Shown: positions 16,633 to 45,758 of the stretch, piece by piece | Position numbering within the stretch: the first letter of the stretch is position 1 | Layout of the letters: each line of letters opens with the position of its first letter | The notes under the pieces: model-generated | The model's input: the letters and a program-made list of their open reading frames with translations, nothing else | What the model was told of the DNA's origin: nothing | The model's database searches: none | Program-made: the position numbers and the translations under genes | Source: Jaapia argillacea MUCL 33604 | Taxonomy: Eukaryota > Basidiomycota > Agaricomycetes > Jaapiales > Jaapiaceae | NCBI GenBank assembly: GCA_000697665.1 | Contig: KL197729.1 | Location: 164,596-228,595, forward strand | Reading direction: 5' to 3' | Length of the DNA: 64,000 nucleotides

Positions 16633-19600
16633 TCAGCCAGCAAGTATGATATCCATCTCTTCAGCAACCTGCGTCATACTCGGCCGCTTATCTGGATCGT
16701 AGTAACCACACCTGGTAATAAGCTCCCAGAGTTTATCGCCCATCTCTCTTCCACGACAATCCTTCGACTCAGGTCGCTTCGGCCTCGTCCCCCTATAGAC
16801 CAAACTCATAACATCCATCGGACTCCGAATATACCAAAACGGCACTTTTTCCGTGTACAACTGTAATAAAGCGCTGACACATGAGTCAACTGACATAAAT
16901 GAAAAAGAAATCCACGAACTTCAACACAGAGTTGGCCATAAGCATACACATCCGTGCTATAATTCCGTCCTTGGTTGGCATTGAAAATTTCAGGAGCTTG
17001 CCATCTCGCCTCATCCATGGCGGCCTCCGATGGCATACAGCCTCCACCATCAAGTTCAATGTCGGAAGCCGTAAAACCAACCAGTCGCGGATGGAACATA
17101 TCATCAATGACAACGTTAGCCTAATGGAAAGAACATATGTGAACTGCGCAAGACGAACCGAGTCAGATATGACTCACTCCTTGGAGTCCACCATGGAGAA
17201 CGTTCTCTTGGTGGAGATACTCAACCCCTCTCGCAATTTGTGCCAGCTTCTTGGTATCAGTTGGTCAACAATATTTTCAACAATAACAGTAAAATCGAAC
17301 CAAGCGGTTAACCTCCATCGACGTCAGCTTCCTACTCGCCATATATTCCAAAATGCTCCCGTTTTCCGTCCATGGAGAGATTATGCATAGATCTTCTGGC
17401 CCAAAAAGCGCAGAGTCGACTCCTAAACACGGGAGAACATACGGATTTGAAAGTTGCTTCCAGATCAGCACCTCACGATATGACTAACTGCCATTCATCA
17501 GCTGTGAAACTCCAATGAATAAACATAGACATACACGACGGCGCCATTCTGAAACACCACTATAATCATACTGAACACGCTTCAGAGTCACTTTGCGGCC
17601 TTTCCATGATCCTAGAACTGGATCGCGAGTCATAAAATCGTCGCCGTTAAAGGTGACGCCCGTGATGAAAAAGTTTGCTGGTAAATGCCCCGATGCAACA
17701 GAAACCCTAACCAAGATCCTATGAACGGAAAGCTGGGAAGCTCGGGAAGGCCTCAGTTTGGATTCATATGATTCGAAGGGCAAAAGGGAGGCAGCCCCGC
17801 GACAATATTGATGACGTTTCTCAAAGGATTGAAGGATCTACGGAAATGGAGGCGGACAAGTGTGAATATCAATCTTTCGCATGGAGAGCAGCGACATACT
17901 CGTTGTAGCAAGTCGACAAGGTGCTGAGAACACTCTTTTGGCAGAGAAGAAATGAATTCGGAATCACGTAATGTCGCTCCCAATGAAGTGGTGTCAATAA
18001 TGGCGTCTGTTACCAGAGAATTGAAGATGGTGCATAATTTGGTCGCCTCTAGTTTCTCCAATTCCTGTCGAGGAGTAGATGACATGAGAACAAACCCTAG
18101 TTGATGCTGGGCACATACCGGGAGTGAAATGCACTCTGAACTATCCATGGGAGAGGCAGAGTCGGCTGACTTCCCGAGCAAAACGCCAATCTGACGCTCA
18201 CAACGCCGAATAAGATCCTGATAGCGAATAGCAAGCCATAGATGGGCGAAAGGTATATCGACAAGGAACGGCGAATGCTTCCCGGAATCCGTCAGGTATC
18301 GATAAAACGAAGGGTGGATGACTTGGACAGTTTCATTGTGTTCTAGCTTTTGTGATGGTATTGAATGGTGATCGGAGTACGGCGTGAAGGGATGAAATGA
18401 TGGCTTCTGCAACTCCCTTCGAAACTCCTGTAATGTCAGACAATTCTGCGAGAGTGAGAGGTTCAGAGACGCCCAGTATCGCAGCAAGCAGTGGTCGGAA
18501 CCCGTCCTGAAATACGGCCCGCTTTGTACTGTTATATGCCCGATCAACAATGACTCGATAAACATTCCACAAACTCTCCTCTGGGTCGTCTCTTGCTCCA
18601 GTGAGCGGATCAAGAATGAGACGCAAATCTGCGTCGAAGTCGAGCGATTGAGAAAGGAAGTCGCATACGGTCGATGCCCAGATGAAAAGGCCACCCGCAC
18701 GTTCCAGGAGGCGCTGCCTAGGTCGCGAATCGGGCCGGTCTATCAGAGGGACCTTGTTAAATCGTACAGCGAAATATTCGTTCAAGTCCCTGATGTTTGA
18801 AGAAGCTTCAAGATCGATAGAGAGTCGATAATTCCGAACATTCTGAATGATTGTTTCAAAACGAGTCTCCGGACGACTTGTGACAAAGAATTTGACATGG
18901 CTTTGGAGTTCGTCAAGTGCGTCACAGAAGGACTGAAGGATATCCGTGGCGTCGTCACATTCGTCCAACGCATCCATCACGATTATCAGTGGCGAGGGGG
19001 GCAATTTCGATTTCTTCAACGGCGCGAGGAGGAGTTCGCCGAATTGACGGTCAGATGTCGATGGGAGCGACCGTTTCAAGACTTCACAAAGGTGAGTCCT
19101 GAAGGAATGATGGTTGTCGGCGAGCTGATACGCAATAGTAGCCCAAACCTTGTGTCCGCTCCGACGAGCGGCGTCATCGCGAGAGAAGAAAAAGCTACCT
19201 CCAAGGAGGTCACAAGCATGGAAGGAACGAGCCGCACTGTGGGAGACCGTAGTTTTCCCAAGTCCTGCGATCCCGCAAAGGTATGCAAGGGGAGCGGTAG
19301 ACGGAACACCCCACTTCTCGATTTCGTCAAGGATCTCAGTGCGTGTGTTCTCGTAGCAAGCGAGTCTCGGCTGCCAATGAGCGCGCTCGACGCAGGCAGT
19401 TCGAAGTTGTCCAAGAAGTATGATTTCATCTATCGTTGTGAGATATCGTTAACTTACACCTGGATAGGATGGAGAGTATCGACATACTCTGGGTTTTTTG
19501 GTTGAGATTACCCTCCTTCACTTCAACCTGGAGCTCTGTAATCCTGTCCGGTAACTTCACAACGACTTCCTTGATCACTGCCGCTTTGAAGTTCGTATCC

Positions 19601-20452
19601 AAAGCGACATCGAGCTGTGTTGATGACGGGGAGAGAATCAGACATTCCACTCCCCGCGTTCGCTAGTGGCTATGGGACCTTACCTGGAATATACCGCAAA
19701 GTCCTTGGAGAAGCTTCTCGAAATCTGCCTGGAGACCCTGATCCAGCTGATGGAGGCTTAACCGCTTGCCGATGCCCTCCATCTGCTTGGATTTCGCGCG
19801 ATCGAAAAGCCGTTTAAGATTCCTGTCACGTACATGGTCAGGATATTATTGACAGCCAGGCTCAAAGGAGAATCTGACTCGACCAGCGCAATACAGGGCT
19901 GTCGTATATCCAAATCCACGTCCTTCGGTGCGTTCGATAAACTTCTCTCAAGAACGCGAAATGTTCGAAGTGTGGAATTGGCCAAACTTTCCCATCTTCC
20001 AGGGTTATCCCTTACATCCTACATCGTGACTGGTGACTGTGTGGGAGGGCTCCAAAGGCGGTATGACGAACCTCAAAGATGGTAAGAATTTGTACCATCA
20101 ATCCCCCGATGGTTTTCACAAATGGGAACTGTCCAAGAACTTCCCCGATATCCTTCAACGCTCCAGCGACCTCTTTGCCCAAAGAGGTGGTAAGATCTGG
20201 AAGATCTGGATCTGGTGGAAGGTCGACGATTGCTGACGGAGATTGGGAGGCTGCTTGGTTGGATGAACTTGGTGATGTGTTCGATGATGGTGTCATATTT
20301 GACGAGGTTGTTGGTGGTAGAGACGGTGAACCGGTTGGAGTAGGATCGGACGGAGGTAGAGAAGTGGGAGTAAGAGACGGAGATCTTGACCATCCAAGCT
20401 TGGTTGCTATGGTACGGAGGAACTTCCCAGATCGACGTTTGCTTTGAGGCAT
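16633..20452 (-). pseudogene. NLR copy 1: helical N-terminus, NACHT, C-terminal pseudokinase; one frameshift
   Basis: The start MPQSKRRSGKFLRTIATKLG (ATG 20452) leads into a Ser/Pro-rich linker and a helical block (EVAGALKDIGEVLGQFPFVK) of the kind that precedes NACHT in basidiomycete NLRs. The NACHT has P-loop GIAGLGKTT (about 19245-19275), Walker B IIVMDALDEC (about 18965-18995) and TSRPE. Then comes a helical region, and then a kinase fold: GSWKGRKVTLKRVQ, REVLIWKQLSNPYVLP, HGGLQGANVV in place of HRDLxxxN, and LVGFTAS in place of DFG, ending at the TGA 16633-16635. The catalytic Asp and the metal-binding Asp are both absent. Compared with copy 2 there is one extra A in the run at 18348-18351, which breaks the frame between NACHT and kinase. 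Clean introns include one of about 60 nt ending just before ILQSFEKRH. Confidence 0.75.
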
Positions 20453-21152: not shown

Positions 21153-22567
21153 TTACCTATGCTCCAACGTGATGGGAATGTGTACCTCCTTTTCCACAGG
21201 CCCCATCTCCAATTCTGATTGATATATCCCGTGCGGCACGTGCGGGGAGTGGGTGAGAACTTCAACGCCCTGTTGTTTGAGTGACTCTGGATCCTTTCCG
21301 AGAGAATCAACACTGGATGAACGAGCCCTGCGCTCAGAGCCTCCGAGACGGCACGTCAGAGCTCGAACCCAAGTAAGGTTCCAGAACCAACCGGGCAGTC
21401 GGGGAAGGAAGGTCAGGAGCGATAGGAATGGCGGGACAGCGACCGATACCGCCAAGATCTTTGATGAGAAGGACATTAGACGTATGATCAAGCACGATCG
21501 GAGTTATAGACGTACCTGGCCAAAGGAGGCTTGAGAATTGACACCATCGTTAATTTGAAGGTGGGCGCCATACTCGAGGGTGACGATCCAGTAAGTGAAG
21601 GGGAATACCACCACAGTGACCAAGTGGACGAAATGATACTTGTCGCAAACAGCTCGCCTGTTGGGAATGGGAATGTCATGTTCAGCCTATTGATCATACC
21701 ACGATCGGCCACTCACCACATCCGCCAGACAGGGAACATTCCGTTGCCTATCCATATCTCCTTTCGCCTCAGAACGATGCAGGTGATCCAAACCACCAAC
21801 AGAACAACCCATGGGATAAGGCCAATCAAGCCCCATCTCACTGAAAATGCGAAGGGTAATATTGGCGTCACGAGCATGAAGATGAGAAGGGCTTGGGCGT
21901 AGCCCAACGAGTCACACGCGACTTGGCTCAAGGATCCGCGTTTATCGGCAATGGATAGGTAGATGAAGATCCCAACCCAGAACGGGATCATCAAGAGGAC
22001 AAGGAGACGGTTGAACCACCACCGCGCTTTCCCTTTCTCGAAAACCTCGTTCATCCGCGTTTCCTGTCCAGATAGCGAACGAAGAGCGTAAATAACCAGT
22101 GAAATTGATAACGGAGAACCAGTTGTTATCAATGCGTAGGTTCCGTGGAAGCGAGTGAGGGAGTGGTCGGCGATCGAGATGCAGGTGGTAATGAAGAGAG
22201 AGTAAACCGACAGTATTTGCGCGTAGAAAGTTGTTGCCACATCGTCGGGTGAGTGCAGAATTACGAGTGCGAGGCAGACGTTCGTCACATAAGCTGTTAC
22301 GTGGGAGATCAGCCCCACAACTACCACAAAAATGAAAGATGGCTCACTCGATATGCGCACATACAAGCCGGCCACATCAGTGTTTGGACAGTATCCGAAT
22401 TCGCAAGAATCCCGAGGAGGGTTGAGGCAGTAATACTGAACATAACTGGCCTGAGAGGAAGAAATGTTGAGAAAATTCAACATATCCATCGTGGCGGGGC
22501 AATGGTCGTTGGTATCCCAGCATGTAGGGAGAGGAGGGTAGAGTGTGCCGTTGATAGTGCCGTTCAT
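21153..22567 (-). CDS. Multi-pass membrane protein, tandem copy 1 (432 aa)
   Basis: Three exons: 21717-22567, 21516-21657 and 21153-21458, all with GT-AG borders and matching phases, give 432 residues. The N-terminus has likely N-glycosylation sites (NGT, NIS) and five cysteines (about residues 16, 23, 47, 55 and 60), suggesting an extracellular cap. About seven or eight hydrophobic segments follow, for example FIFVVVVGLISHVTAYV, LLVLLMIPFWVGIFIYLSI, LIPWVVLLVVWITCIVL and ILAVSVAVPPFLSLL. The C-terminal tail of about 75 residues is polar and probably cytoplasmic. The layout is receptor-like or transporter-like, but I recognise no named family. It is intact and lies in a 2.86-kb tandem duplication. 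Confidence 0.8.
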
Positions 22568-23984
22568 TGCAGTGGAACGCCAGCGGGAACGAGGTTGAGG
22601 ATCGAGTGAGAGCCTGAGAGGCTGCTACTAGTACTAACGGGATCTTGACTCGTGCAAGATTAGCTCGTAGGAGCGCCCAGGGCGATGGGGTGGATAAGGT
22701 TGGTCACAGAGACCATCCAACGTGGCTGCAATGAATTGCTTGCCAGGGTACGGCTTATGAAACCGATATCACATCGACACCGTCCCCGACGATTTAGCTA
22801 TTCCATTCCTAGAAAGACGTCCGTTTTCACTCGAAAGGTACAACCCTCGACATCCTTGTTTGCGACAAAAGGCACGGTGAGTAACTAACTCGGACCCTAC
22901 AAGTCACCGCGTCAATAACGAGAGCACCAGGAGGAATATACACGTACCTCGATGGCACTGAGCCAATCAGCACACCGCCCGAGATCCCATTCAACCAGAA
23001 ACATCTCGTTCGGCGGTCGTTACTACTGAGATTACTACACAGTAACTGTCAGTAAGGAACAACAAACATCCAGCGCAAGTAAACATCCGAGGGGCATGTG
23101 ACATGCTCGAGCTAAAAATAGCTCAGCGCTCGGGATTTCGTCGTTGACCTCTATCTCACGAATCCCAAGACAGCCCGATGTGGCTTAGCTCTATATCTAT
23201 GGCCTGGATTTAATTGATTAATGGACTCGGAACGGTGAGTTGAGTGGCCTAGGAATTCTGATTGAATGTGAGGTCCAAAGCCGGCGGTAGGGAATGCGGG
23301 AATGCGAACGCGGTGAAATTGCATCGGACAGTGCAGGCTCCATAAAGCAAGGACGAGTTGTGGGTGATTAGTCGGTTGACTCTCAGTGTATTGATTGGTT
23401 GATCGCTCGTCGCCATTATCATGGCGCGAGGTACTCTCATTGCCTCCCCACACTCTTTGGACGAGAACTTGCCGGTAGGGAGGTCGAGATAAGATTGCCG
23501 ATAGCTGATAGAGAGAGGGAGGATGTATCCCTTAACAAAACGCAGTAACGTGTGAACATGTTAATCGTCATTGCGACGGCGATGGTTCCAGAGGGGATGG
23601 GGGATAGCAACTTGGACTCGGTGGTTTTGCGAACTACCTGGACTGTGAGAAACCGGATCCTTCAAATCGACGAACTAACAGGGACCAAAGAATGGGAACT
23701 TACACATACAGTCACTTCTCCTCCGCTGGGCGAATATGGACACTCTCTACGCCAGGATTTGGCCATCCGGAGCTCGAGAACGAGAGAATGGAAGCTATCG
23801 AGCCAACAATACGGTATGACTCTGTCGGGGTTAGGAGACACCGGTCTCGACAAGCTGGGACTAGCATATCAAGGGAAATCAAAGGTCCAAAGGTAAATCG
23901 ACTGAACAAGTATGACTATCAACAGTGGAACCCAGAATTCCCAGCACCGTGTATCTATCTAAGTATCTCAACTCATACTGGCGG
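22568..23984. repeat. Upstream half of tandem duplication unit 1
   Basis: No convincing gene. The stretch matches 25430-26800 throughout, with the same order of landmarks at an offset of about 2862 bp. It holds the promoter of membrane copy 1 and low-coding repeat sequence. Confidence 0.65.
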
Positions 23985-25429
23985 TCAAGCCCCGCTCAAC
24001 TGGGTCGTCCCATTCACCACTCCCGTTACCGCCAACGGGGCGTGCTCTTTCATTTCTACGGGCCCCAATTCCAAGTGAGGTTGATATATCCCGTGTTCCT
24101 CGTGGGAAGAGCAAATCGGAAGCCCCAAACCCTGTTGGTTGAGCGACTCTGGATCCTTTCCGAGGGAATCAACACTGGATGAACGAGTCATGCGCTTAGA
24201 CCGTCCGAGACGGGACTTCAGAGCGCGAACCCAAGTAAGGTTCCAGAACCAACCGGGCAGTCGGGGAAGGAAGGTCAGGAACGATAGGAATGGCGGGACA
24301 GCGACAGAGACCGCCAAGATCTTGATGAGAAGGACGTTAGAGGTATGATCAAGCACGATCGGAGTTATAGACGTACCTGGCCAAAAGAGGCTTGAGAATT
24401 AACACCATCGTTAACCTGAAGGTGGGCGCCATACTCGAGGGTGACGATCCAGTAACTGAAGGGGAATACCACCACAGTGACCAAGTGGACGAAATGATAA
24501 TTATCACAAACAACTCGCCTATTGAGAATGGGAATGTCAGGTTTGGCCTACTGATCGTACCACATTCGGCGCACTCACCACATCCGCCAGACAGGGAAAA
24601 TTCCGTTGCCTGACCATATCTCTTTTCGCCTCAGAACGATGCAGGTGATCCAAACCACCAACAGAACAACCCATGGGATAAGGCCAATTAACCCCCATCT
24701 CACTGAAAATGCGAAGGGTAATATTGGCGTCGCGAGCATGAAGATGAGAAGGGCTTGGGTGTAGCCCATCTCGTCGCACGCGACTTGGCTTAAGGATCCG
24801 CGTTGATAGGCGATGGATAGGTAGATGAATATCCCAATCCAGAACGGGATCATCAAGAGGACGAGGAGACGATTGATCCACCACCGTGGTTTATCTTTCT
24901 TGAAAACCTCGTTCATCCGCGTATCCAGCCCGCATACCGAATGAATAGCGTAAATAACCAGTGAAATTGACAACGGGGAACCAGTTGTTATCAGTGCGTA
25001 GGTTCCGTGGAAGCGAGTGAGGGAGCGGTCGGCGATCGAGATGCAGGTGGTGATGAAGAGAGAGTAAACCGACAATATTTGCGCGTAGAAAGTTGTTGCT
25101 ACATCGTCGGGTGAGTGCAGAATTACGAGTGCGAGGCAGACGTTCGTCACATAAGCTGTTATGTGGGAGATCAGTCCCACAACTACCACGAAAATGAAAG
25201 ATGGCTCACTCGATATGCGCACATACAAGCCGGCCACATCAGTGTTTGGACAGTATCCAAAGTCGCAAGAATCCTGAGGAGGGTTGAGGCAGTAGTACTG
25301 AACATAACTGGCCGGAGAGGAAGAAATGTTGAGAAAATTCAACATATCCATCGTGGCGGGGCAATGGTCGTTGGTATCCCAGCATGTAGGGAGAGGAGGG
25401 TAGAATGTGTCGTTGATAGTGCCGTTCAT
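23985..25429 (-). CDS. Multi-pass membrane protein, tandem copy 2 (442 aa)
   Basis: Exons 24579-25429 (851 nt), 24377-24518 (142 nt) and 23985-24320 (336 nt) give 442 residues. The first two exons have exactly the same lengths as in copy 1, and most residues are identical. Differences cluster in the C-terminal tail, which is ten residues longer and ends in VNGTTQLSGA. The five N-terminal cysteines and all hydrophobic segments are kept. The gene is open and spliceable, so this is a recent functional-looking duplicate. Function unknown. Confidence 0.8.
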
Positions 25430-26850
25430 TGCAGTAGAACGCCAGCGGGAACGGGGCTGAGTATTGAGTGAGAGCCTGAGAGGCAGCTATTTGTACTAGC
25501 GGGATCTTGACCTGTACGAAATTAGCTCATAGGAGCGCCCAGGGCGATGGGATGGATAACATTGGTCACAGAGATCATCGAACGTGGATGCAATGAATTG
25601 CTTGCCAAGGTACGGCTTATGAGACTGATGTCACATCGACACCGTTGAGCTACTCCGTTCCTAGAAAGACGTGTGTTTTCACTCGAAAGGTACAACCCTG
25701 TACATCCTGTTCGTGACAAAAGGTACGGTCAGTGGGCAACTCGGACCCTACAAGTCACCGCGTCAATAACGAAAGCACCGTGAGGAATATACACGTACCT
25801 CGATGGCACTGAGCCAATCAGCATGCCGCCCATAATCCCGTTCAACCAGAAACATCTCGTTCAGCGGTCGTTACTATTGAGATTACGCGGTAAGGAACAA
25901 GAATCCTTTACAAGCGTCAAACGCCAGTGAACCTCCGATGGTCACGTGACAGGCTTAAGCTGGAAATAGGCGCTCGGGCTCGGGGCTCGGGATTTCGACC
26001 TCTATCCTTCTCACAAATGCGCATTCTATCCAAAGACAGCCCGAAGGGGCTTAGCTCTACGGCCTGGCTTTAATTTATTGATTGATTGGTGGGTTGAGTG
26101 GACTAGGATTTCTTATCGAATGTGAGGTCCAAAGCCGGGGTTACGGAATGCGAGAATGCGAGCGCGGTGAAATTGCGTCGGAGAGTGCAAGGCTCCATAT
26201 AGCAAGGACGAGTTGTGGGTGATTAGTGGGTTGACTAGAGTGTATTGATTGGTTGATCGCTCGTCGCTATCATCATGGCGCGACGTACTCTCAATGCCTC
26301 CCCACACTCTTTGGTTTAGAACTGGCCGGCACGGAGGTCGAGATAAGATCGCCGATACCTGATAGAGAGAGGCGGGATGGATCAGCCACGCCGATTATCT
26401 TGACATTGAGAAAGGACATATGGTGCCCGTGCGCGACCGTCACAAAACCTAGTACCGCCATTCGAACATATTAATCATCACTGCGACGGCGATTGTTCGA
26501 TGCAAAGCAGAGGAGATCGAATGCGAGGGGGGGGGAGATAATCAACTTGGACTCAGTGGTTATACGAACTAACTGGACTGTGAGAAAACGGATGCTTCAA
26601 ATCGACGAACCGAAAGGAACAAAAGAATGGAGAACTCACGCATACAGTCACTTCTCCTCCGCTGGTTTGAACATGGACACTTCCTACGTCAGGAGTTGGC
26701 CATACCGGAGCTGGAGAACGAGAGAATGGAAGCTATCGGGCCAACAATACTGTGCGACTCCGTCGCGGCGACATCTCGCTGCCGTTCCTACCTACTGTGA
26801 CCGTTCGTTAGGCACTGATTGTCATTGAGGGTACGCGGTTTTTTGCAACA
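25430..26850. repeat. Upstream half of tandem duplication unit 2
   Basis: Direct repeat of 22568-23900. Contains the promoter region of membrane copy 2. No gene seen. Confidence 0.65.
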
Positions 26851-30062: not shown

Positions 30063-30099
30063 CACCCTCCCACCTCCAATTAATCCCTAACTACTCACA

Positions 30100-31173
30100 A
30101 TGCCTTCCCTCGTAGCAGTCCGAGCAGCAAACATCGCAACTCTCGCTTCCTTCCCTCCCTCCTTCACACCCACCGCACTCTTCCTAGGCGGAACTTCAGG
30201 AATAGGCCAAGCGATGGCCCAATCCTTTTCCCAGAAAACAAAAGGAAATTCCAAGATAATCATAGTCGGTCGAAATCGCTCGTCAGCGGAATCTACCATC
30301 GCTTCGTTCCCTCCGCCCGAGAGGGAGGAACTGAGAGGGAAGGAGGAAGTTAGGCATGAGTTTGTAGAGTGCGATGCTACGTTGATGGAGAATGTGCATA
30401 AGACTACCAAAGAGTTGTTGGGGAAGTTGACGAGGTTGAATTACCTCGTCCTCTCACCTGGGTTCTTGACTATCAAAGGGAGGAACGAAACTTCCGAAGG
30501 TCCGTCCCACCCCCTCCCTCCTCCCTCTTCACCCACTGAGTCCTACCAAAGGCATCGACAAGAAACTCGCGTTAAACTACTACGCCCGCTGGACCTTCAT
30601 CCACGACCTCCTCCCCCTCCTCCTCAAAACCAAGCAATCCGGCGAAGACGTAAGCGTCCTCACCATCCTTGGCGCAGGCTCAGGTGGTCAAGTCGATTCG
30701 GAAGACCTGGGTCTAAGAAAAGGTTATGGGTTATTAGCAGCTGGTAAAGCCGCAGTCACGTACACCGATTACATGCTCGAGGTTCGTCTCCCCCTCTTCC
30801 TCCTTTCTCACTCCCATCAAATAACTAATTGATGACCACGAAGTCATTCTCGTCTCAAAACCCAAGTATCCCGTTCGTGCATACCTACCCAGGTATAGTC
30901 CGTACCCCAATGTCAGCAAACGTATCCGGCATACCAAAACCTATCACCACACTCCTCAACACTTTACTCTACCCAATCCAAACCACCCCAGAAGACTGTG
31001 CAGAATGGATGTTGTATTCGATGTGGCAGGGGAGTGAGGCGGGTGGTGGGGCGTGGAGGAGGGGAGCGAAGGGTGATGATCTTGGGAGGCCCAGTTTTAT
31101 TGAGGAGGGCGGGGGAGAGAAGGGGGTTAGGTTGTGGGAGCATACGATGAGGGAGACGAGGAGTGCGGCGTAG
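30100..31173 (+). CDS. Atypical short-chain dehydrogenase/reductase, copy 1 (319 aa)
   Basis: Exons 30100-30499, 30552-30781 and 30844-31173 splice with correct phases to 319 residues. A Rossmann NAD(P)-binding motif GGTSGIG follows the first strand (TALFLGG), and VGRN is a typical second strand. The usual NNAG is replaced by LSPG, and the usual YxxxK is not present: the matching place reads GYGLLAAGKAAVTYTDY, with Lys kept and no Tyr four residues before it. Such SDRs occur in large fungal families and may use other residues or act as non-catalytic binders. The C-terminus is Gly/Glu/Arg-rich. One of three intact paralogues in the window. Confidence 0.85.
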
Positions 31174-32111: not shown

Positions 32112-34433
32112 TTAAACGCCTGCGCCGTCGGGTTCTTGTTCGGGCTCGGCTTCCTCAGCCCACAACACCTCCAACTCTTCCAAGTCCCCAGGTCTTCCAA
32201 GTTGTTTATATCGGGCAGCAAGAACGGCGATGAGGACTTTGAGACCGCGCTCTTTCCGTATTCCAGGGAAAAGACCAAGGGCTTGACGGACATGCATAAG
32301 TGACTCGTCCGAGTCCTCTATCCGGCCAGCATGGATGAATCGATCATTAAGGTGGGCTGCAACGTTTAAGAGTGTCGTAGCTCGAGAATCAACGGGGTCC
32401 ATCTCAAGTTTGAGGGCTTCACGATCGCACTCGATAGCCTCATCCAAGTCCTCGACCTTCTTGTAGTGGTCAAATCGAAGACTGAGGTAATATGCAAGTC
32501 CAGTAAGGGACCATGCTCGTTCAGTGGGTTCCGATAGGAGAGTCGTAATTTCGCGACGAAGTCGGATTTGTTCTTCCAAGTCAACCAGCTTTGGAGTGCG
32601 TTTGAATTCATTGTCCAGGCGTCCAATCTGGAGCAAGAGAGATCGGAGTCTGGTGACATGAGCTAAGGTGGGAGATGAGATATGTATGTGATGATACACC
32701 TAAGGCAACTCACGTCTAGCGATAGCATTCATTGTTGATTGCCTTCCTGATTCGGCGGCTCCCTGAGTCGGAGATGGGTTAACGCTGTGGTCCGTAGGGA
32801 AAGTGTGAGCGTATTCCTACTCTGAAAGGCTGTCCAGTGCTCACCTGTTGGTTGCCGTGACCGGCCTCGAGGATTCTCCATAATGAATTGTTGTGATCTG
32901 TCTTGAAGTTTCACCCTCAGCATCCGAAGCAATGCCACCCGCGACAATAACTTGTGGGGTTCTTGCTCGGTATTGGGGGGCTTGAGGCGGACTACGGTCC
33001 AGGAAGAAACTATAGGTATATTTCTTACTCTGAAAGGCAATTCGGTACTCACCTGTTGATCGTCGTGGCCAGCCTCGAGGATTGATCATAATGAATTGTT
33101 GTGATCTGCCTTGAAGTTTCACCCTCATCATCGGAAACAGGTGTTGAGATGGGTAGCCCCTGATTTGCGGGAATAGATTCATGAGCAGGCCTGGGGCCAT
33201 CACTTTGGCTTTCGATGGTCGGTTGTAGCTGGATACTACCCAATGACGCCGATATGTCGTCGGAGTCGTTGTGTGATTTCTCTGGAGGATGCAGTGTACG
33301 TTGTGAAATCTCCTGTTCCCCTGCATACGACACGGCAAGCACCTCGAGTCGATGGACCAAATCAGCTGCAGGGGGTCTTGTCCGTGGTTCCTGACTCCAA
33401 CATTCCTCCACAAGAGACCACATGGCGTCGTCCAAACCGCGGTGCGTGATCTCCGACTGAGAAGGGCGGATAGGGCGCCCACCTTCGTTTCTAACATAAG
33501 CAAAAACTGTGTTGTTCGGGAGTAGACCGAAGGGTGCGTGTCCAACAAATATCTAGATAGGGGTCAAGACCATATTGATGCTATCAGTAACCAAACGTAC
33601 CTCATATATCGTCATGCCAAAGCTGTACACATCGGACCGTTTGTTAACGCCGCTCCCGCTCATTTGCTCTGGGGCCATCCATTGCAAAGTCCCTTGTCCG
33701 CCAGCATTGGTGGCATTCGAAGTTGAATGCATTCTCACTAAAGATAACCCAAAATCGGATAAACAGGCGACTCCATGTTTGTCCACCAATATGTTAAGCT
33801 GCCATTAGCCAATAAGTTGGCAATAACCGTCGGTCAGTGTTAACGTGTGGATCAGAGATGGGGAAACTCACTCCCTTCAGATCACCATGTACGATTGAGT
33901 GACGATGAAGATATTGTAGGCCCAGAGCTGCTTCATGCAGCTAATCAGGAGGCGAACCTTGAACATCGAGTAGTAACTATGGCGATGAGAGCTGTACGCA
34001 CCAACTTTGGTCTATCAGCATCGGGATGTCTCAGAACAAAACTCAGTGCGTTGCCTCTCTGCTTGAGAGCGGACACTAGGAACAGCGGAGCCGAAGACGA
34101 GTTGTATCCAAAGAACTCCGCGATGTTCGGGTGTCGAATGGATTTCCATACATCAACTTCCCTCCGTAAAAGCTGGTGGAGGCAATGAGGAAATCAAAGA
34201 AAAACCAAACGAAGACGACACACTTCAGCTGGGATACCCTTCTGTAAGACCTTAACTGCCACGTCGTGCCCCCCCCAACGTCCACGATACACGGATCCAA
34301 ACCCCCCTTCTCCAAGGAGGTCTTTGTAGTTGATATCCACCTCGTCCGGCCCGATCACAAAAGCACTTGGCCTTCTTTCGGTTCGAGTACGACTACCAGC
34401 GGGCGTCATGGAGTCTGATAGTTGACGAATCAT
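32112..34433 (-). CDS. TKL-like protein kinase with C-terminal TPR region
   Basis: The ATG at 34433 is followed within 50 residues by a glycine loop GEGGFGSVYRG and the ATP-anchoring Lys in VAVKVL. Split over short exons come REVDVWKSIRHPNIAEFFGY, catalytic loop HGDLKG plus LNILVD, DFG in SDFGLS, and MAPEQ as the APE motif. The kinase closes with WSLVEECWSQEPRTRPPAAD. All catalytic residues are present, with HGD for HRD as in many fungal TKL kinases. A linker with a duplicated exon-intron unit (about 32750-33130) leads to a helical repeat part (32112-32699) with TPR-like periodicity (DLDEAIECDREALKLE, DSDESLMHVRQALGLF). It probably phosphorylates partners recruited by the TPRs. Intron borders are partly approximate. 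Confidence 0.78.
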
Positions 34434-38170: not shown

Positions 38171-39838
38171 CCTGAAGATCGGGTACATTTAGCAGCAAGA
38201 AGCCCTTACCGGCGTCAACGAGAGAAGCCGTTCCCAGCGGCAAGCCTAGAAATCAGGTGCATATAGCAGTATCCAGAACCCGATATAGCTGACAGGCGGA
38301 GTAGAAGGATCGTGTGAAGAGTATACAATGGATGGATGGTGGATGAGTTGTATCGACATCCGAGCACGAAGAAGGACATACTAAGCCCCCTAGTAAAATG
38401 CAAATAGCGATCTGACTCCGATCTCCAGAACCTTCCAACTCGAAGTTCCGAAACCGCCGGTCATTATCATAATGGCACGACGAACACCCCAACAACCTCG
38501 CTCCAAATCTGGGTATGCAGTCAAAATAAGCTCGCGTGTACTAATATGGGGTGGATGGTGTTCATTTTGCTGTTTACGAGATAATAAGTTAGTCCACGGT
38601 TTGGAGTTGGAGACTGCTTGTTGGATTCGAGCGAGGAGTTGACAACCTATTGAGCGGAGAGTCGAATGAGGGATATCATCTTCACTCAACGGTTTTACGA
38701 CCTAACAAAGGCTAAATTGAACCTCTCCATTCGATGCATACTAAAAGGAATAAACGAATGGGGAACTCACGCATACAACCACTTCTCCACTTCCTAAACT
38801 CGGAGTTGACGATACTCTACATGCCGAGCGAAGACTCCGCCGTTCGCACGGAAACGGAGCTAGAGAACCAGAGAACGTACGCAGTTGGACCGACAATACA
38901 GTACAGCCCGCCGCAGTGACATCCGGCAGCTGCTCCACCCTAGGAGCCATTCGTTAGGCGCTCGTCATCATTGAGGGTACACAATTTGCAAGAAGCCCTT
39001 ACCGGCCTCAAAGAGGTAAGCCCCTCCCAGCGTCAAACCTGGCAAGTGGAATCAGCTGCGTCCTAGAATCGGAGATAGCAAGCAGGAGGAGTGGAAGCAT
39101 CGCGGGCGAAAGGAAGGGTGGATTAGCCGCATCGATACTCACTCAAAAGGAAAGACACGTCGAAATTCGTCGATAGACAGCAAGTACAATCCGACACCCA
39201 TCTCCAAACCCTCCATAACTCGAGTCTCCTAGCTCTTAACTCAGTGGTTTGAGGAACTAAACGGACGACGATCAAACAGATTTTTCGATACAGTGTCAGT
39301 ATCACAGAAAGAAACCAGCAAATGGGGGACTCACACGTATAGTCACTTGTCCTAGATAGACTCGACGATAGATATATAAGTTCACCCCACCAATCACGCG
39401 GGAGACAGGATATCGATGAGAAGGAGTCCGGAGAAGTATGTAGCATCATATCAACTGTCGTTGCCATTCCATAACATTGGAACTTCGCATTTCGCTTCAT
39501 GGTCGTTATTATCGATGCAGGATGGAACGAGAGTTTGCTACTCGCGTCAAAGTACAAGAGATCCGAGTGCGTGTGGGATTAATTCTGATTTGACCTCCCT
39601 GGACGATTCCTCCAACACCCCCTGCCAATGCACTCGTTTCTAACGCACCTCAGGCAACCATCTCAACGACAACCCTTCGTACTGGTACTCTGTTGCATCC
39701 CACTATCCCATTATGATATCCAACTTGCCAAGCACAGAAGCAACCTCGGCCCCATCTGCACCGACCTCGACCCCCGACTTAGCACCCTCCGCTATAAAAC
39801 ACCCTCTCCTTGCCTCCTAGTCACCCGACGCAACCACA
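38171..39838. repeat. Further degenerate copies of the membrane-gene upstream repeats
   Basis: Pieces at 38080-38460, 38690-38980 and 38960-39240 repeat one another and 26500-27110. No gene supported. The last 250 bp hold the SDR 2 promoter. Confidence 0.5.
39793..39799 (+). promoter_or_regulatory. TATA box of SDR gene 2
   Basis: TATAAAA, 40 nt upstream of the ATG at 39839. Confidence 0.6.
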
Positions 39839-40931
39839 ATGCCCTCCCTCGCCACAGTCAAAGCCTCCAACACCACAACCCTCGCCTCCTTCCCTCGCTC
39901 CTTCACCCCCACCGCCCTCTTCCTCGGCGGAACCTCAGGAATAGGCCAAGCAATGGCCCAATCATTCGCTCATCACACAAACGGCAACTCTCGTATCATC
40001 ATCATCGGTCGTAACCGCCACGCAGCCGAATCCACCATCGCTTCCTTTCCACCTCCCTCACGAGAAGAACTGAGAGGGACGGAGGAAGTGAGACATGAAT
40101 TTGTAGAGTGTGATGCTACGTTGATGGAGAACGTGCATAAGACTACGAAAGAGTTGTTGGGGAGACTGAATAAGTTGAACTATCTGGTTCTCTCCCCTGG
40201 GTTCTTGTCCATTAAAGGCAGAGACGAAACTTCCGAGGGTAAGTCCTCTTCCCTATCTCTCTCCACGCCACCCCCGCTTACCTCACCACAGGCATCGACA
40301 AGAAACTCGCTTTATATTATTACGCGCGCTGGACTTTCATCCACGACCTCCTCCCTCTCCTCCTCAAAACCAAACAAAGCGGCGAAGACGTAAGCGTCAT
40401 CACCATCCTAGCCGCAGACACAGGTGGAGAAATCAATTGGGAAGACTTAGGGTTGAAACACGGTTATGGGTTCGTATCATCCAATAAAGCAGCTATAACT
40501 TATACCGATTACATGCTCGAGGTTCGTCCCCTCCCCCCTGATCCTCCTTCTCTCCCCTCACTTCATCATCCTAACAAATCCAATCCCAGTCATTCTCAAC
40601 TCGAAACCCAAATATCCCATTCACGCATACGTACCCAGGCCCAGTCCGAACCCCTCTAACATCCCACATAACCGGCCTACCCAAACCTCTCAGCGTAATA
40701 ATCAACGCCCTTCTCTACCCCGTCCAAATTACCCCTCAAGATTGTGCGGAATGGATGTTGTATGCTATGTGGGAGGGGGGTAAAGGTGGCGGAGGGGCTT
40801 GGAGGCGGGGAGCGAGAGGTGAGGAATTGGGTAGACCGAGGTTTGTTGAGGAGGGGGGTGGGGAGAAGGGGGAGAGGTTGTGGGAGCATACGATGAGGGA
40901 GACGAGGAGTGGGGTGGAAGGGGAGTTGTGA
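39839..40931 (+). CDS. Atypical short-chain dehydrogenase/reductase, copy 2 (323 aa)
   Basis: Exons 39839-40238, 40292-40521 and 40590-40931. The first two exons have the same lengths (400 and 230 nt) as in the other copies. Rossmann motif GGTSGIG, then IGRN and LSPG. The usual catalytic Tyr position is again lost (GYGFVSSNKAAITYTDY). This copy is the most diverged of the three, for example EINWEDLGLKHG and a different C-terminal end (SGVEGEL). Intact and spliceable. Confidence 0.85.
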
Positions 40932-41239: not shown

Positions 41240-44200
41240 TCACCCAGCAACTATGATATCCATCTCTTCAGCAACCTGTTCCATACTCGGCCGCTTGCCC
41301 GGATCGTAATCACCACACCTGGTAATAAGCTCCCAGAGTTTATCACCCATCTCTCTTCCACGACAATCCTTTGGCTCAGGTCGCTTCGGCCTCGTCCCCT
41401 TATAGACCATCCTAATAACTTCTATCGGACTGCCAATATACCAAAACGGCACTTTTTCGGTGTACAGCTGTAATAAACCGCTGATACATGAGTCAACGGC
41501 CATAATGAAGATGAAATCTACGAACTTCAAGACAGAGTTGGCCGTAAGCGTAGGCGTCCGTACTATAATTCCGTGCTTGGCCGGGATTGATAATTTCAGG
41601 AGCTTGCCATCTCGCTTCACCCATGGCGGCCAGCGATGGGTTACAGCCTCCACCGTCAAGTTCAAGGTCTGACGCGGTACAACCAACCAGCCGTGGACGG
41701 AACATATCATCAATGACAATATTAGCCTAACAAAAAGAACATGTGTGAACTGAGAGAGAATGATCTCAGATAGGACTCACTCCACGGAGTCCACCATGGA
41801 GGACATTCTCTTGGTGGAGATACTCAACCCCTCTCGCAATTTGGGCCAGCTGCATGGTGTCAATTCGTCAACAATAGCTTGGTCTGTGAAATCGGCAAAC
41901 AAACCAATTGGTTAACCTCCATTGACGTCAGTGTCCTAGTCTCCATCCATTGTAGAATGCTCCCGTTTTCCATCCACGGAGAGACGATGCATAGACCTGC
42001 TTGCCCAAAGAGCGAAGAGTCAACCCCTAAGCACGGGAGGACATACGGATGCGAAAGCTGTTTCCAAATCAACACTTCACGATATGTCTAAACCGCCTTT
42101 CGTCAGCCGTCAACTCCTGGGGAACAACAGTAGACATACACGACTGTACCATTCTGGAACGTCGGTATCATCATACTGAATGCGCTTCAGAGTTACTTTT
42201 CGACCTTTCCATGATCCTCGAACCGGACTCCAATCCAGAAGATCGCCATGTTGAAAATCGACGCCTGTGAGGAAAAAGTTCGCTGGCAAATGCCCTGATG
42301 CTACAGAAACCGTGACCAAAATCCTGTGAACAGAAAGCCGGGAAGCTCGAGAGGGCCTCAGTTTGAATCCATATGGTTCGAGGGCCGGAAGAGAGGCAGC
42401 CCTGCGACAATATTCATGACGTTTCTCAAGGGATTGAAGGATCTGCGGAGACGGTCAAGGGTGAATATCAACATCCACATGGAAAGCAACAACGTACTCG
42501 TTGTAGCAAGTCGACAAGGTGCTGACAACACTCTTTCGGCAGAGAAGATACGAATTCGGAATGACCTAATGTCACTTCCAACAAATTGGTGTCAATAACG
42601 GTCTTTGTTACAAGAGAATTGAGGAGGTTGCATAATTCGGTTGTCTCGAGTTTCTGCAATACCTGTCAAGGAGTAAATTATATGAGAATGGGTATGGTTG
42701 ATGCCAGCCACATACCGGTAGTGAAATGCACTCCGAATTATCCTTGGGGGAGACAGATACTGCTCCCTTCCCGAGCAAAACGTCAATCTGACGCCCACAA
42801 CGCCGGATAAGATCCTGATACCTAAAACCAAGCCATAAATGGGCGAAAGCTATATCGATAAGGAACGGCGAGTGCTTTGCAGGATCTGTTAGATATCGGT
42901 AAAATGAAGGATGAATGACTTGAACAGTTTCATCGTGTTCTAGCTTTGTGGTGGTATTGAACGGCGATCGGAGCACTGCATGAAGGGATGTAATGATTGC
43001 TTCTGCAACTCCCTTTGAAATCCCTGTAATCTCGGACAATTCCATGAGGGTGAGGGGTTCAGAGACGGCCAGTATCGCAGCAAGCAGTGGTCGGAACCCA
43101 TCCTGAAATACGGCCCGCTTTGTACTGTTATATGCCCGATCAACGATGACTCGATAGACATCCCACAAACTCTCCTCTGGGTCGTCTCTTGCTCCAGTGA
43201 GCGGATCAAGGATGAGACGCAAATCTGTGTCGAAGTCGAGCGATTGAGAAAGGAAGTCACATACGGTCGATGCCCAGATGAAAAGGCCACCGGCACGTTC
43301 CAGGAGGCGCTGCCTAAGTCGTGAATCGGGCCGGTCCATCAGAGGGATCTTGTTAAATCGTATAGTGAAATATTCGTTCAAGTCCCGGATGTTTGAAGGA
43401 GCTTCAAGATCGATGGAGAGTCGATAATTCCGAACATTCCGAATGATTGTTTCAAAACGAGTCTCCGGACGACTTGTAAAGAACAATTTGACATGGCCTT
43501 GGAGGTCGTCAAGTGCGTCACAGAAGGACTGAAGGATATCCGTGGCGTCGTCACATTCGTCCAACGCATCCATCACGATTATCAGAGGCGAGGGGGGCAA
43601 TTCGGATTTCTTCAGTGGCGCGAGGAGAAGTTCGTCGAATTGACGGTCGGACGTCGATGGGAGCGACCGTTTCAAGACTTCGCAAAGGCGAGTCCTGAAG
43701 GAATGGTGGTTGTCGGCAAGCTGATACGCGATAGTGGCCCAAACCTTGTGTCCACTCCGACGAGCCGCGTCATCGCGAGAGAAGAAAAAGCTACCTCCAA
43801 GGAGGTCACGAGCATGGAAGGAACGAGCTGCGCTGTGAGAAACCGTCGTTTTTCCAAGTCCTGCAATCGCGCAAAGGTAAGCAAGGGGAGCAGTAGACGG
43901 AACACCCCACTCCTCTATTTCGCCAAGGATCTCTGTGCGTGTGTTCTCGTAGCAAGCGAACCTGGGTTGCCAATGGGCGCGCTCAACACAGGCAGTTCGA
44001 AGTTGTCCAAGAAGTGTGATTTCATCTATCATTGTGAGATATCGTTAACTAAGGTTGGATGTGATCGAGAGTGTCGGCATACTCTGGCTTTTTTGGTTGA
44101 GATTACCCTCCTTCACGTCAAACTGGAGCTCGTTAATCCTATCCGGTAATGTCACGACGGCCTCCTTGATCACAGCCGCTTTGAAGTTTGTATCCAAGGC

Positions 44201-45049
44201 GATATTGAGCTGTGGTGAAGGCGGGGAGACAATCAGCCATTCCACTCCCCGCATTCTAGCCACTATGAGACCTTACCTGGAATGTACCACGAAGTTCTTG
44301 GAGAAGCTTCTGGAAGTCTTCCTGGAGACCCTGATCCAGCTGATGTAACCTTAATCGCTTGCCGATGCCCTCCTTCTGCTTGGATTTCGCTGCATCGAGA
44401 AGCCGTTGGAGATTCCTGTCGCGAATGCGGTGAGGACACCATCGACCGACGGACCCAGATGGGAATCTGACTTTGCCAGCTCATCACAGGACTGTCGTAT
44501 ACCCAAATCCACGCCCTTTGGAGCGTTCAATAGCCTCTCCTCAATAACGCGAAAGGTTCGAAGTGTGGAGCTGGCCAAGTATTCCCATCTTCCAGGGTTA
44601 TCCCTTACGTCCTACGATTGTGACTGATAAGTTTGTGGCAGGGCATGAACGGTGGGGTAACGAACCTCGAAGATGGTTAGGATTTGTACCGTCAGTCCCC
44701 CAATGGTTTTCACAAACGGGAATTGTCCGAGAATCTCTCCGATATCCTTCAGCGCTCCAGCGACTTCTTTCCCCAACGACGTTGCAAATTCCGGAAGATC
44801 AGCGTCTGGTGGGATATCGACGGGTCCGGAAGTGCATTGGGGCGGTGTTCGGTCGAATGATGGTGATGGATTGGATGGCGGCGTCACATTTGGTGAGGGT
44901 ATTGGTTTGGACAGTTGAGCACGCAGTAGATTGGTTAGAGTTAGATCAGATGAAGGTATTGTATGCACAACGGAAGGTGCAGATCTTGACCATCTCAGTT
45001 TGGTCGCTATAGTGCGTAGCAATCCAGATCGATTCTTGCTGTGAGTCAT
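41240..45049 (-). CDS. NLR copy 2: helical N-terminus, NACHT NTPase, C-terminal pseudokinase
   Basis: The start MTHSKNRSGLLRTIATKLRW (ATG 45049) is followed by a Pro/Ser linker and a helical block EVAGALKDIGEILGQFPFVK. The exon at 42608-44032 alone encodes 474 residues with P-loop AIAGLGKTT (about 43840-43875), Walker B IIVMDALDEC (about 43560-43590), TSRPE, and the winged-helix-like region expected after NACHT. After two introns a kinase fold follows: GSWKGRKVTLKRIQ, REVLIWKQLSHPYVLP, CIVSPWMENGSI, HGGLRG plus N, VGCTAS for DFG, ARWQAPEI, and an intact C-lobe ending EEMDIIVAG. The HRD Asp and DFG Asp are missing, so it is predicted to be a pseudokinase. NACHT exon and kinase are open in this copy. 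A frame change near 44400-44430 is unresolved (see findings). Likely role: NTP-switched sensor passing a signal through kinase-fold contacts. Confidence 0.78.
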
Positions 45050-45758
45050 GGATAAATCGACTGAAGAAAGGTGTGGCGACAGAGTTGCCATTGAACGATT
45101 TGAATGTTGGCAGGAGTCGTAGAAACAGGGTGGAGATTCACTTGTTTCGATAGATGAATGGACTGAGATAGACAAAACAATCCCATGATGGCAGCACTGC
45201 TAGTTGTCGAGAAAATAGATTCGGGCTGTACATGGGGCGCATGACAGCCACGGCGGCCAGCGCCTAGAGACGAGCGCTTACTAAGGAGAAAAGTTGGACA
45301 TGGAATAAGTGAAGTAGGACGGGCGGATGCACCCGCGACGGTCCCAAACGTGAAGTTCGTTGGTTCATCTGCACTCGCACACATGTGCAGACGTAGTGAA
45401 ATAGTAATTTTCAAAATTATCCTCTGTTCCGACACAATTGTTGAACTCGCCAGAGCCAGACACGATCAAGCAAACGCGAATGGCCTTCACAATCGGATAG
45501 TACAATCCACTCATCCTCTATCAATGAAGTCGCCTTCGGTCGTCGTGAATGTTTGAGTCGGAGTCGCGGCAGCGGGAATCCGCACTTTAGCTATTTCAAA
45601 TTTGGTTCAACCCGTCCAACCTGCAGCGACGATAACTTGAACGTTAGAACCCACTTTAAGGCTTTGAAATGGATGGCGTTGTGTCTCACAGGCCTCACCG
45701 ATGTTAAAAAAGGCGTCACATATCTCCTATGGGCTACAGTTAGGTATCGAACGACACC
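45050..45758. other. Divergent promoter region between NLR 2 and IMPACT-like gene
   Basis: The NLR-proximal part is similar to the region upstream of NLR 1. No gene seen. Confidence 0.45.

Follow-up and report, generated by a model that had tools for sequence, protein, structure and literature searches.

C-terminal kinase domains are already known in fungal NOD-like receptors (NLRs). In the Sordariales, 9 of 12 NLR kinase domains are C-terminal, related to CHK2/PRD-4, and were proposed to be decoys (PMC12258605), while the available part of a 2014 survey gives PKinase as an N-terminal class and reports a Pfam annotation for 52% of fungal NLR C-termini, where repeats are usual, not universal (PMC4986451). 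In the accessible passages of another report, NACHT occurs with ankyrin and not with kinase (PMC3499355). The locus described herein is a variant of this arrangement, a basidiomycete clade with a pseudokinase of the tyrosine kinase-like (TKL) type. It lies in a window of 64,000 nucleotides (the whole stretch of DNA that was analysed) from Jaapia argillacea MUCL 33604, contig KL197729.1, and is represented there by gene A, predicted to encode a NACHT-type ATPase followed by a kinase fold. A first-pass annotation of the window had described the N-terminus as the better-known site of kinase domains in fungal NLRs, which agrees with the 2014 survey but not with the Sordariales data.

Gene A is on the minus strand, and its hand-built splice model (Table 1) comprises 11 exons, with the stop codon ending at 41240 and the frame open throughout. 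All 10 introns are GT-AG (54, 56, 67, 81, 53, 55, 52, 55, 54, and 58 nucleotides), and the same model was recovered by a spliced aligner given the same protein. Translation may begin at 45091 (1088 residues) or at 45049 (1074 residues), the latter being likelier because a paralogue, gene B, has a Met at the matching place; the residue numbers used herein are counted from 45091. In Pfam, the model NPHP3_N matches residues 306–455 (expectation value [E] 3e-25), and both Walker A (AIAGLGKTT) and Walker B (IIVMDALDEC) are present, as expected for a nucleotide-binding ATPase of the NACHT type. The Pfam NACHT model itself, PF05729, did not match A in the protein scan or in the genome search, which speaks against membership by that model; the NACHT assignment is made because the related NPHP3_N model matches. 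PF05729 does match four copies of the family on contig C8, two over the cut-off (103527 and 140410) and two under it (389224 and 132923). Residues 580–673 gave a weak match to the winged-helix model HTH_TANC1 (E 5.5e-4; 20.2 bits, below the cut-off of 27), and no match to WD40, ANK, or TPR was found in a Pfam scan of the 1088 residues with E up to 10. Read from its sequence, A is a NACHT-type fungal NLR with a kinase fold at the C-terminus, where repeats usually sit. This single-gene arrangement, without repeats, had been proposed in the first-pass annotation, and is borne out by the splice model, by Pfam, and by the junction introns shared with paralogues.

The C-terminal fold was matched by two Pfam models, Pkinase at residues 839–1080 (E 2.1e-26; profile positions 22–259 of 263, thus covering both lobes) and PK_Tyr_Ser-Thr at residues 840–1081 (E 4.2e-26). 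In the PDB, the sequence matches were the kinases LCK, CTR1, RAF, and MLK (best E 3.2e-16 for the whole protein and 4e-17 for the kinase part), which places the fold in the tyrosine kinase (TK)/TKL group. The motifs of catalysis are, for the most part, degraded. The glycine loop is unrecognisable, with GDLLDWSPV in its place, the Asp of HRD is replaced by Gly (HGGLRG), and DFG reads GCT (VGCTAS), its Asp also being lost, while the lysine of VAIK (here VTLK), the alpha-C Glu, and QAPE are retained. A reading of the domain as a complete active kinase was rejected, since the catalytic motifs are lost, and by its motifs it is predicted to be a pseudokinase. The earlier description of a “full kinase fold” is thus accurate for the two-lobed profile that reaches the C-terminus, but not for the catalytic residues.

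Gene A is not a single unusual locus but one of a family. In separate genome searches with each of its three parts (N-terminal region, NACHT, and kinase), nine NACHT loci matched A at 43–100% identity, while all the other NACHTs did so at 26–36%. This clade consists of A and B, which are both in the window (contig C21), and of seven loci on contig C8, designated hereafter C8_ plus a number. B has the same domains and intron positions as A, and a one-base frameshift relative to it late in the NACHT exon (about 18350–18410, minus strand), which is either a lesion or an assembly error. Eight of 60 NACHT places had a kinase match at most 5 kb downstream on the same strand, and all eight are within the clade of A; the 60 places were listed by hand, duplicate pieces being dropped, and compared with 127 kinase places drawn from longer lists (at least 127 exist). 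At the ninth locus, C8_104, the kinase is so degenerate that the genome search did not list it, but it was found by spliced alignment, with a score of 459 versus 82 for the same query in C8_152, a fragment with neither NACHT nor kinase. The N-terminal domain is also carried by eight of the nine loci; C8_199 has no N-terminal match among those listed, a NACHT with five stops, and a kinase match.

The copies differ in their state of preservation. Models free of lesion were obtained for A, C8_388, and C8_134, in all of which the frame is open through the kinase. C8_139 is not counted as intact, because an apparent lesion in exon 3 persisted after re-modelling with other intron limits. Stops are present in C8_365 (which has only the start of the kinase), C8_235, C8_104, and C8_199, and C8_152 and C8_375 are fragments, the latter a kinase-only piece with nothing above chance-level NACHT scores in the 3.7 kb checked upstream. 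The base composition of the copies also varies. The broken copies C8_365, C8_235, C8_104, and C8_152 are depleted in CpG (observed/expected 0.27–0.54) with raised TpG/CpA, while the ratio is 0.90–1.05 in A, B, C8_388, C8_134, and C8_139; in the broken C8 copies (loci L044, L045, L068, L050, L071, and L051), this pattern resembles the C-to-T decay linked to methylation in copies that are silenced.

Loss of the catalytic residues recurs across the family. For comparison, 18 related kinases of the same genome were modelled automatically from the loci of the kinase search; they are among the nearest relatives returned, not a random sample, and the N-lobe models of L023, L032, and L033 are doubtful or incomplete. 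The Asp of DFG is kept in 18 of these 18 and the Asp of HRD in 17. In the family, the DFG Asp was lost in five of six readable copies (A, B, C8_388, C8_134, and C8_139) and kept in C8_235, a difference (1/6 versus 18/18) with Fisher p = 1.4e-4, and the HRD Asp was lost in A, B, and C8_104 and kept in the other four of seven copies (p = 0.05); as the copies are related by descent and the rows not independent, both p values are only a guide. The DFG count leaves out C8_104 and C8_365, unreadable at this position, C8_199, which has no model, and the fragment C8_375, also without the Asp. Where the HRD Asp is kept, the motif is HGD (C8_388, C8_139, and C8_235) or HAD (C8_134). The VAIK lysine is kept in A, B, C8_388, and C8_365. 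Four copies have another residue in its place (C8_134 T, C8_139 H, C8_104 S, and C8_235 N, the N-lobe model of the last being poor). The alpha-C Glu is kept in A, B, and C8_388. Because the replacing residues differ between copies (G, G, H, and N at the DFG Asp; G and N at the HRD Asp), separate losses of catalysis are favoured. The fold itself is still recognised in C8_134, which is more degenerate than the other copies free of lesion and yet matches PK_Tyr_Ser-Thr at 8e-10. Another recent loss of a catalytic Asp was observed among the other kinases of the genome, in the nearly identical L034 and L038, one of which reads HGG and DLG where the other reads HGD and DFG.

On this evidence, we consider it rather probable that A is an NLR of the NACHT type in which a TKL-type pseudokinase forms the C-terminal module for sensing or repression. 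Such a gene may have arisen when a NACHT gene was fused to a TKL kinase belonging to the type that is expanded in this genome, after which catalysis would have been lost repeatedly while the fold remained in use as a binding surface. At rest, the protein would have its NACHT and winged helix held closed by the pseudokinase until a partner binds or modifies the latter; candidate partners are a pathogen or non-self effector aimed at TKL kinases, a mismatched allelic partner, and a phosphorylating TKL kinase. NLRs in general exchange nucleotide and oligomerise, and their clustered N-terminal domains then signal or kill; the NACHT of A would do the same, its clustered N-terminal domains signalling or killing the cell. 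By its position and by analogy with NLRs, the pseudokinase would take the place of the repeat sensor and bind a ligand or partner; the two roles we favour for it are that of a decoy for factors that target active TKL kinases and that of a docking site for a TKL kinase. The earlier suggestion of a “kinase-fold sensor or decoy” fits here, because the fold appears to be conserved without its catalytic residues.

As the gene model of A was predicted from sequence, it could be argued that two adjacent genes, one for a NACHT protein and one for a kinase, have been taken for one. Introns are found, however, at residues 143, 189, 236, 270, 707, 762, 863, 924, 947, and 1014 of both A and B (the B model has two extra introns, one in the leader and a false one at the frameshift). 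C8_388 agrees throughout, apart from the intron phase at 270 and the position at 863, C8_134 has introns within three residues of each, including junction introns at 704 and 762, and C8_139 shares that at 762, differs at 189 and 707, and lacks that at 270. The leader introns differ among the family copies. Since the short in-frame introns at 707 and 762 bridge the NACHT and kinase parts and coincide, or nearly so, among A, B, C8_388, and C8_134, the locus is best read as one gene. The NACHT-then-kinase order is also found in nine loci, and the two-gene explanation, which is hardly credible, was discarded on the strength of the common junction introns. A fusion in decay, in which the kinase part drifts and has no role, would agree with the lost catalytic residues, the stops and fragments on contig C8, the frameshift of B, and the exon 3 lesion of C8_139, only three models being free of lesion. 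Nevertheless, in the single comparison of A with B, the ratio of nonsynonymous to synonymous substitution rates (dN/dS) was 0.32 for exons 7–11 (p = 2.5e-10; N-lobe 0.32, C-lobe 0.30), along with 0.16 for the NACHT, 0.24 for the N-terminal domain, 0.55 for the leader, and 0.99 for the linker exon 6, and the kinase frame is open in A, C8_388, and C8_134. The pseudokinase is thus under purifying selection between A and B; neutral decay is disfavoured by dN/dS, and a kinase part without a role is improbable. The domain might instead be an unconventional active kinase, serving as an output enzyme and not as a sensor, given that the lysine and the alpha-C Glu are kept in A, B, and C8_388 and that HGD or HAD persists in the four copies named above. 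We regard this as highly doubtful, with both catalytic Asp residues gone from A and B, the VAIK lysine gone from C8_134 and C8_139, and losses that differ between copies.

The remaining alternative concerns the N-terminus, where residues 95–270 show conservation across the family (column identity averages 71% in five copies, for the region up to the NACHT) and are helical in appearance, as judged by eye. A HeLo/MLKL-type identity had been suggested for this region, and so far has gained no support from tests that are admittedly weak. Pfam gave no credible match for the N-termini of five members (best E 0.037, unrelated families), shallow profiles of five and eight sequences retrieved no MLKL or HeLo chain from the PDB (the best match being VapD, E 0.045 and 0.28, respectively), and hhalign found no match between the family N-terminus and three other NLR N-termini of the genome. 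The Goodbye model PF17109 did not match the family N-terminus, nor any of 14 controls, and is hence uninformative. The profiles are shallow and the tests weak, and, given that MLKL-like N-termini are common in basidiomycete NLRs, according to the available part of PMC9815663, the HeLo/MLKL reading may still hold. A could then act as an MLKL-like executioner, in which the pseudokinase latches a membrane-killing N-terminal bundle that is freed upon phosphorylation by a RIPK3-like TKL kinase. The layout of an N-terminal domain plus a C-terminal pseudokinase, the related kinases with intact motifs in the same genome, the frequency of MLKL-like N-termini just mentioned, and the HELL domains fused to kinase or pseudokinase domains in fungal proteins, as described in the accessible part of a 2025 review (PMC12881547), would all suit this explanation. 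On the other hand, the N-terminus did not match any MLKL/HeLo model or structure with these shallow profiles, no MLKL chain is among the best 60 of the 308 PDB matches of the kinase part, and the layout of MLKL, a four-helix bundle joined to a pseudokinase without NACHT, is not that of A, in which a NACHT-like ATPase intervenes. The comparison with MLKL made in the first-pass annotation therefore stands for the layout only, and an executioner of this kind is unlikely. A separate feature of the N-terminus, located at 44800–45049 (minus strand) and at the same place in the paralogues, is a basic-hydrophobic start (e.g., LLRTIATKLRWSRS) followed by a Pro/Ser-rich leader; it was seen by eye in most of the nine printed models, and is possibly a targeting or signalling motif.

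Some observations weigh against a pseudokinase sensor or decoy in A. The sensor role is putative, being assigned by position only. The broken copy C8_235 keeps the Asp in DYG and four copies keep HGD or HAD, so that the absence of catalysis in all members is not established, and kinases without canonical residues can be active. In a maximum likelihood tree of 25 kinases (C8_365 and L032, whose sequences were too short, being omitted), the family kinases separate into three well-supported groups and form a single group in only 26% of the bootstrap trees; despite this value, the family kinases may have one origin. In addition, the activation-loop stretch has a dN/dS of 0.36 between A and B, with no positive selection seen in this single comparison with a frameshifted B, so that these two genes give no sign of an arms race over a decoy.

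A wider proposal is put forward tentatively: the clade may rely on a single captured TKL kinase for its only C-terminal sensor, its members having lost catalysis independently and kept the fold, and the family would read either attacks on the expanded TKL kinases or signals that come from them. If this were true, the expanded TKL kinases of such fungi would be immune hubs. Repeats are generally regarded as the sensors of fungal NLRs, and no role has been settled for the large TK-like kinase expansions of mushroom-forming fungi; a clade of NLRs whose C-terminal module is a catalytically degraded TKL kinase links the two.

The positions of A, its exons, and B are given in Table 1. Between B and A, the window also contains, at 33337–34370 (minus strand), a TKL kinase with canonical HGDLKGLN and SDFGLS and, downstream of it at 32112–32699 (minus strand), an open reading frame (ORF) that is TPR-like by eye. 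Two pairs of closely similar ORFs, 30091–30747 with 39821–40393 (plus strand) and 21713–22624 with 24575–25486 (minus strand), suggest local duplication in the window; by eye, one pair is dehydrogenase-like and the other membrane-protein-like.

Table 1. Predicted features of genes A and B in the window
Feature	Position	Strand	Basis or remark
Gene A: N-terminal region, NACHT-like ATPase, winged-helix region, pseudokinase	41240..45091	minus	Splice model, aligner, paralogue introns
A exon 1: short basic-hydrophobic N-terminus, Pro/Ser-rich leader, start of conserved N-terminal domain	44666..45091	minus	Splice model
A exon 2: conserved N-terminal domain	44472..44611	minus	Splice model
A exon 3: conserved N-terminal domain	44277..44415	minus	Splice model
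A exon 4: end of N-terminal domain	44107..44209	minus	Splice model
A exon 5: NACHT-like ATPase (AIAGLGKTT, IIVMDALDEC, TSRPE) and winged-helix region	42716..44025	minus	Splice model, Pfam
A exon 6: linker from winged-helix region to pseudokinase; A–B dN/dS 0.99	42498..42662	minus	Splice model
A exon 7: pre-kinase segment and start of N-lobe; glycine loop lost, VTLK lysine kept	42140..42442	minus	Splice model
A exon 8: alpha-C (YREVLIW, Glu kept) to hinge	41905..42087	minus	Splice model
A exon 9: catalytic loop HGGLRG, Gly for HRD Asp	41781..41849	minus	Splice model
A exon 10: VGCTAS at DFG position (Asp lost), activation segment, QAPE	41526..41726	minus	Splice model
A exon 11: end of C-lobe and stop codon	41240..41467	minus	Splice model
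Gene B: paralogue sharing the domains and intron positions of A; HGG and VGFTAS in pseudokinase	16636..20452	minus	Start assigned manually to the Met that corresponds to 45049

Among the known systems, animal and plant MLKL resemble A in having an N-terminal domain and a C-terminal pseudokinase in one chain. MLKL is not known to carry a NACHT, and its N-terminus is a four-helix bundle, a fold that is putative in A. No description of a basidiomycete NLR with a C-terminal pseudokinase was found in the literature searched, which consisted of titles, beginnings of abstracts, and passages, with few subscription papers or preprints. The C-terminal PKinase NLRs of the Sordariales are alike in the position of the kinase domain and in its proposed role as an integrated decoy; these are CHK2/PRD-4-like, while A is TK/TKL-like by Pfam and PDB and has lost its catalytic residues, and the section on kinases does not state whether the Sordariales domains are pseudokinases (PMC12258605). 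The BaMLKL NLRs, as presented in the available part of their description, share with A a conserved domain at the N-terminal effector position, which in A has no assigned membership (PMC9815663). The HELL-kinase/pseudokinase and protease-kinase-like fusions of fungi, as far as the accessible text of the review describes them, are also cell-death type proteins with a kinase-like domain; in these, the kinase is fused to HELL or to a protease, while A has a NACHT followed by a C-terminal pseudokinase (PMC12881547). A plausible source of the fused domain, likened by description and not by sequence, is the TK-like FslK kinases, which are expanded in Agaricomycetes, with 16 of 241 carrying additional domains and most catalytic domains being complete, according to the available part of PMC3937382. 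Finally, the clade is a possible fungal counterpart of the plant pseudokinase decoy receptors: in the accessible accounts, plant NLRs with integrated kinases or pseudokinase decoys present a kinase-like bait to kinase-targeting effectors, a likeness by analogy only, as the make-up of these receptors is other than that of A.

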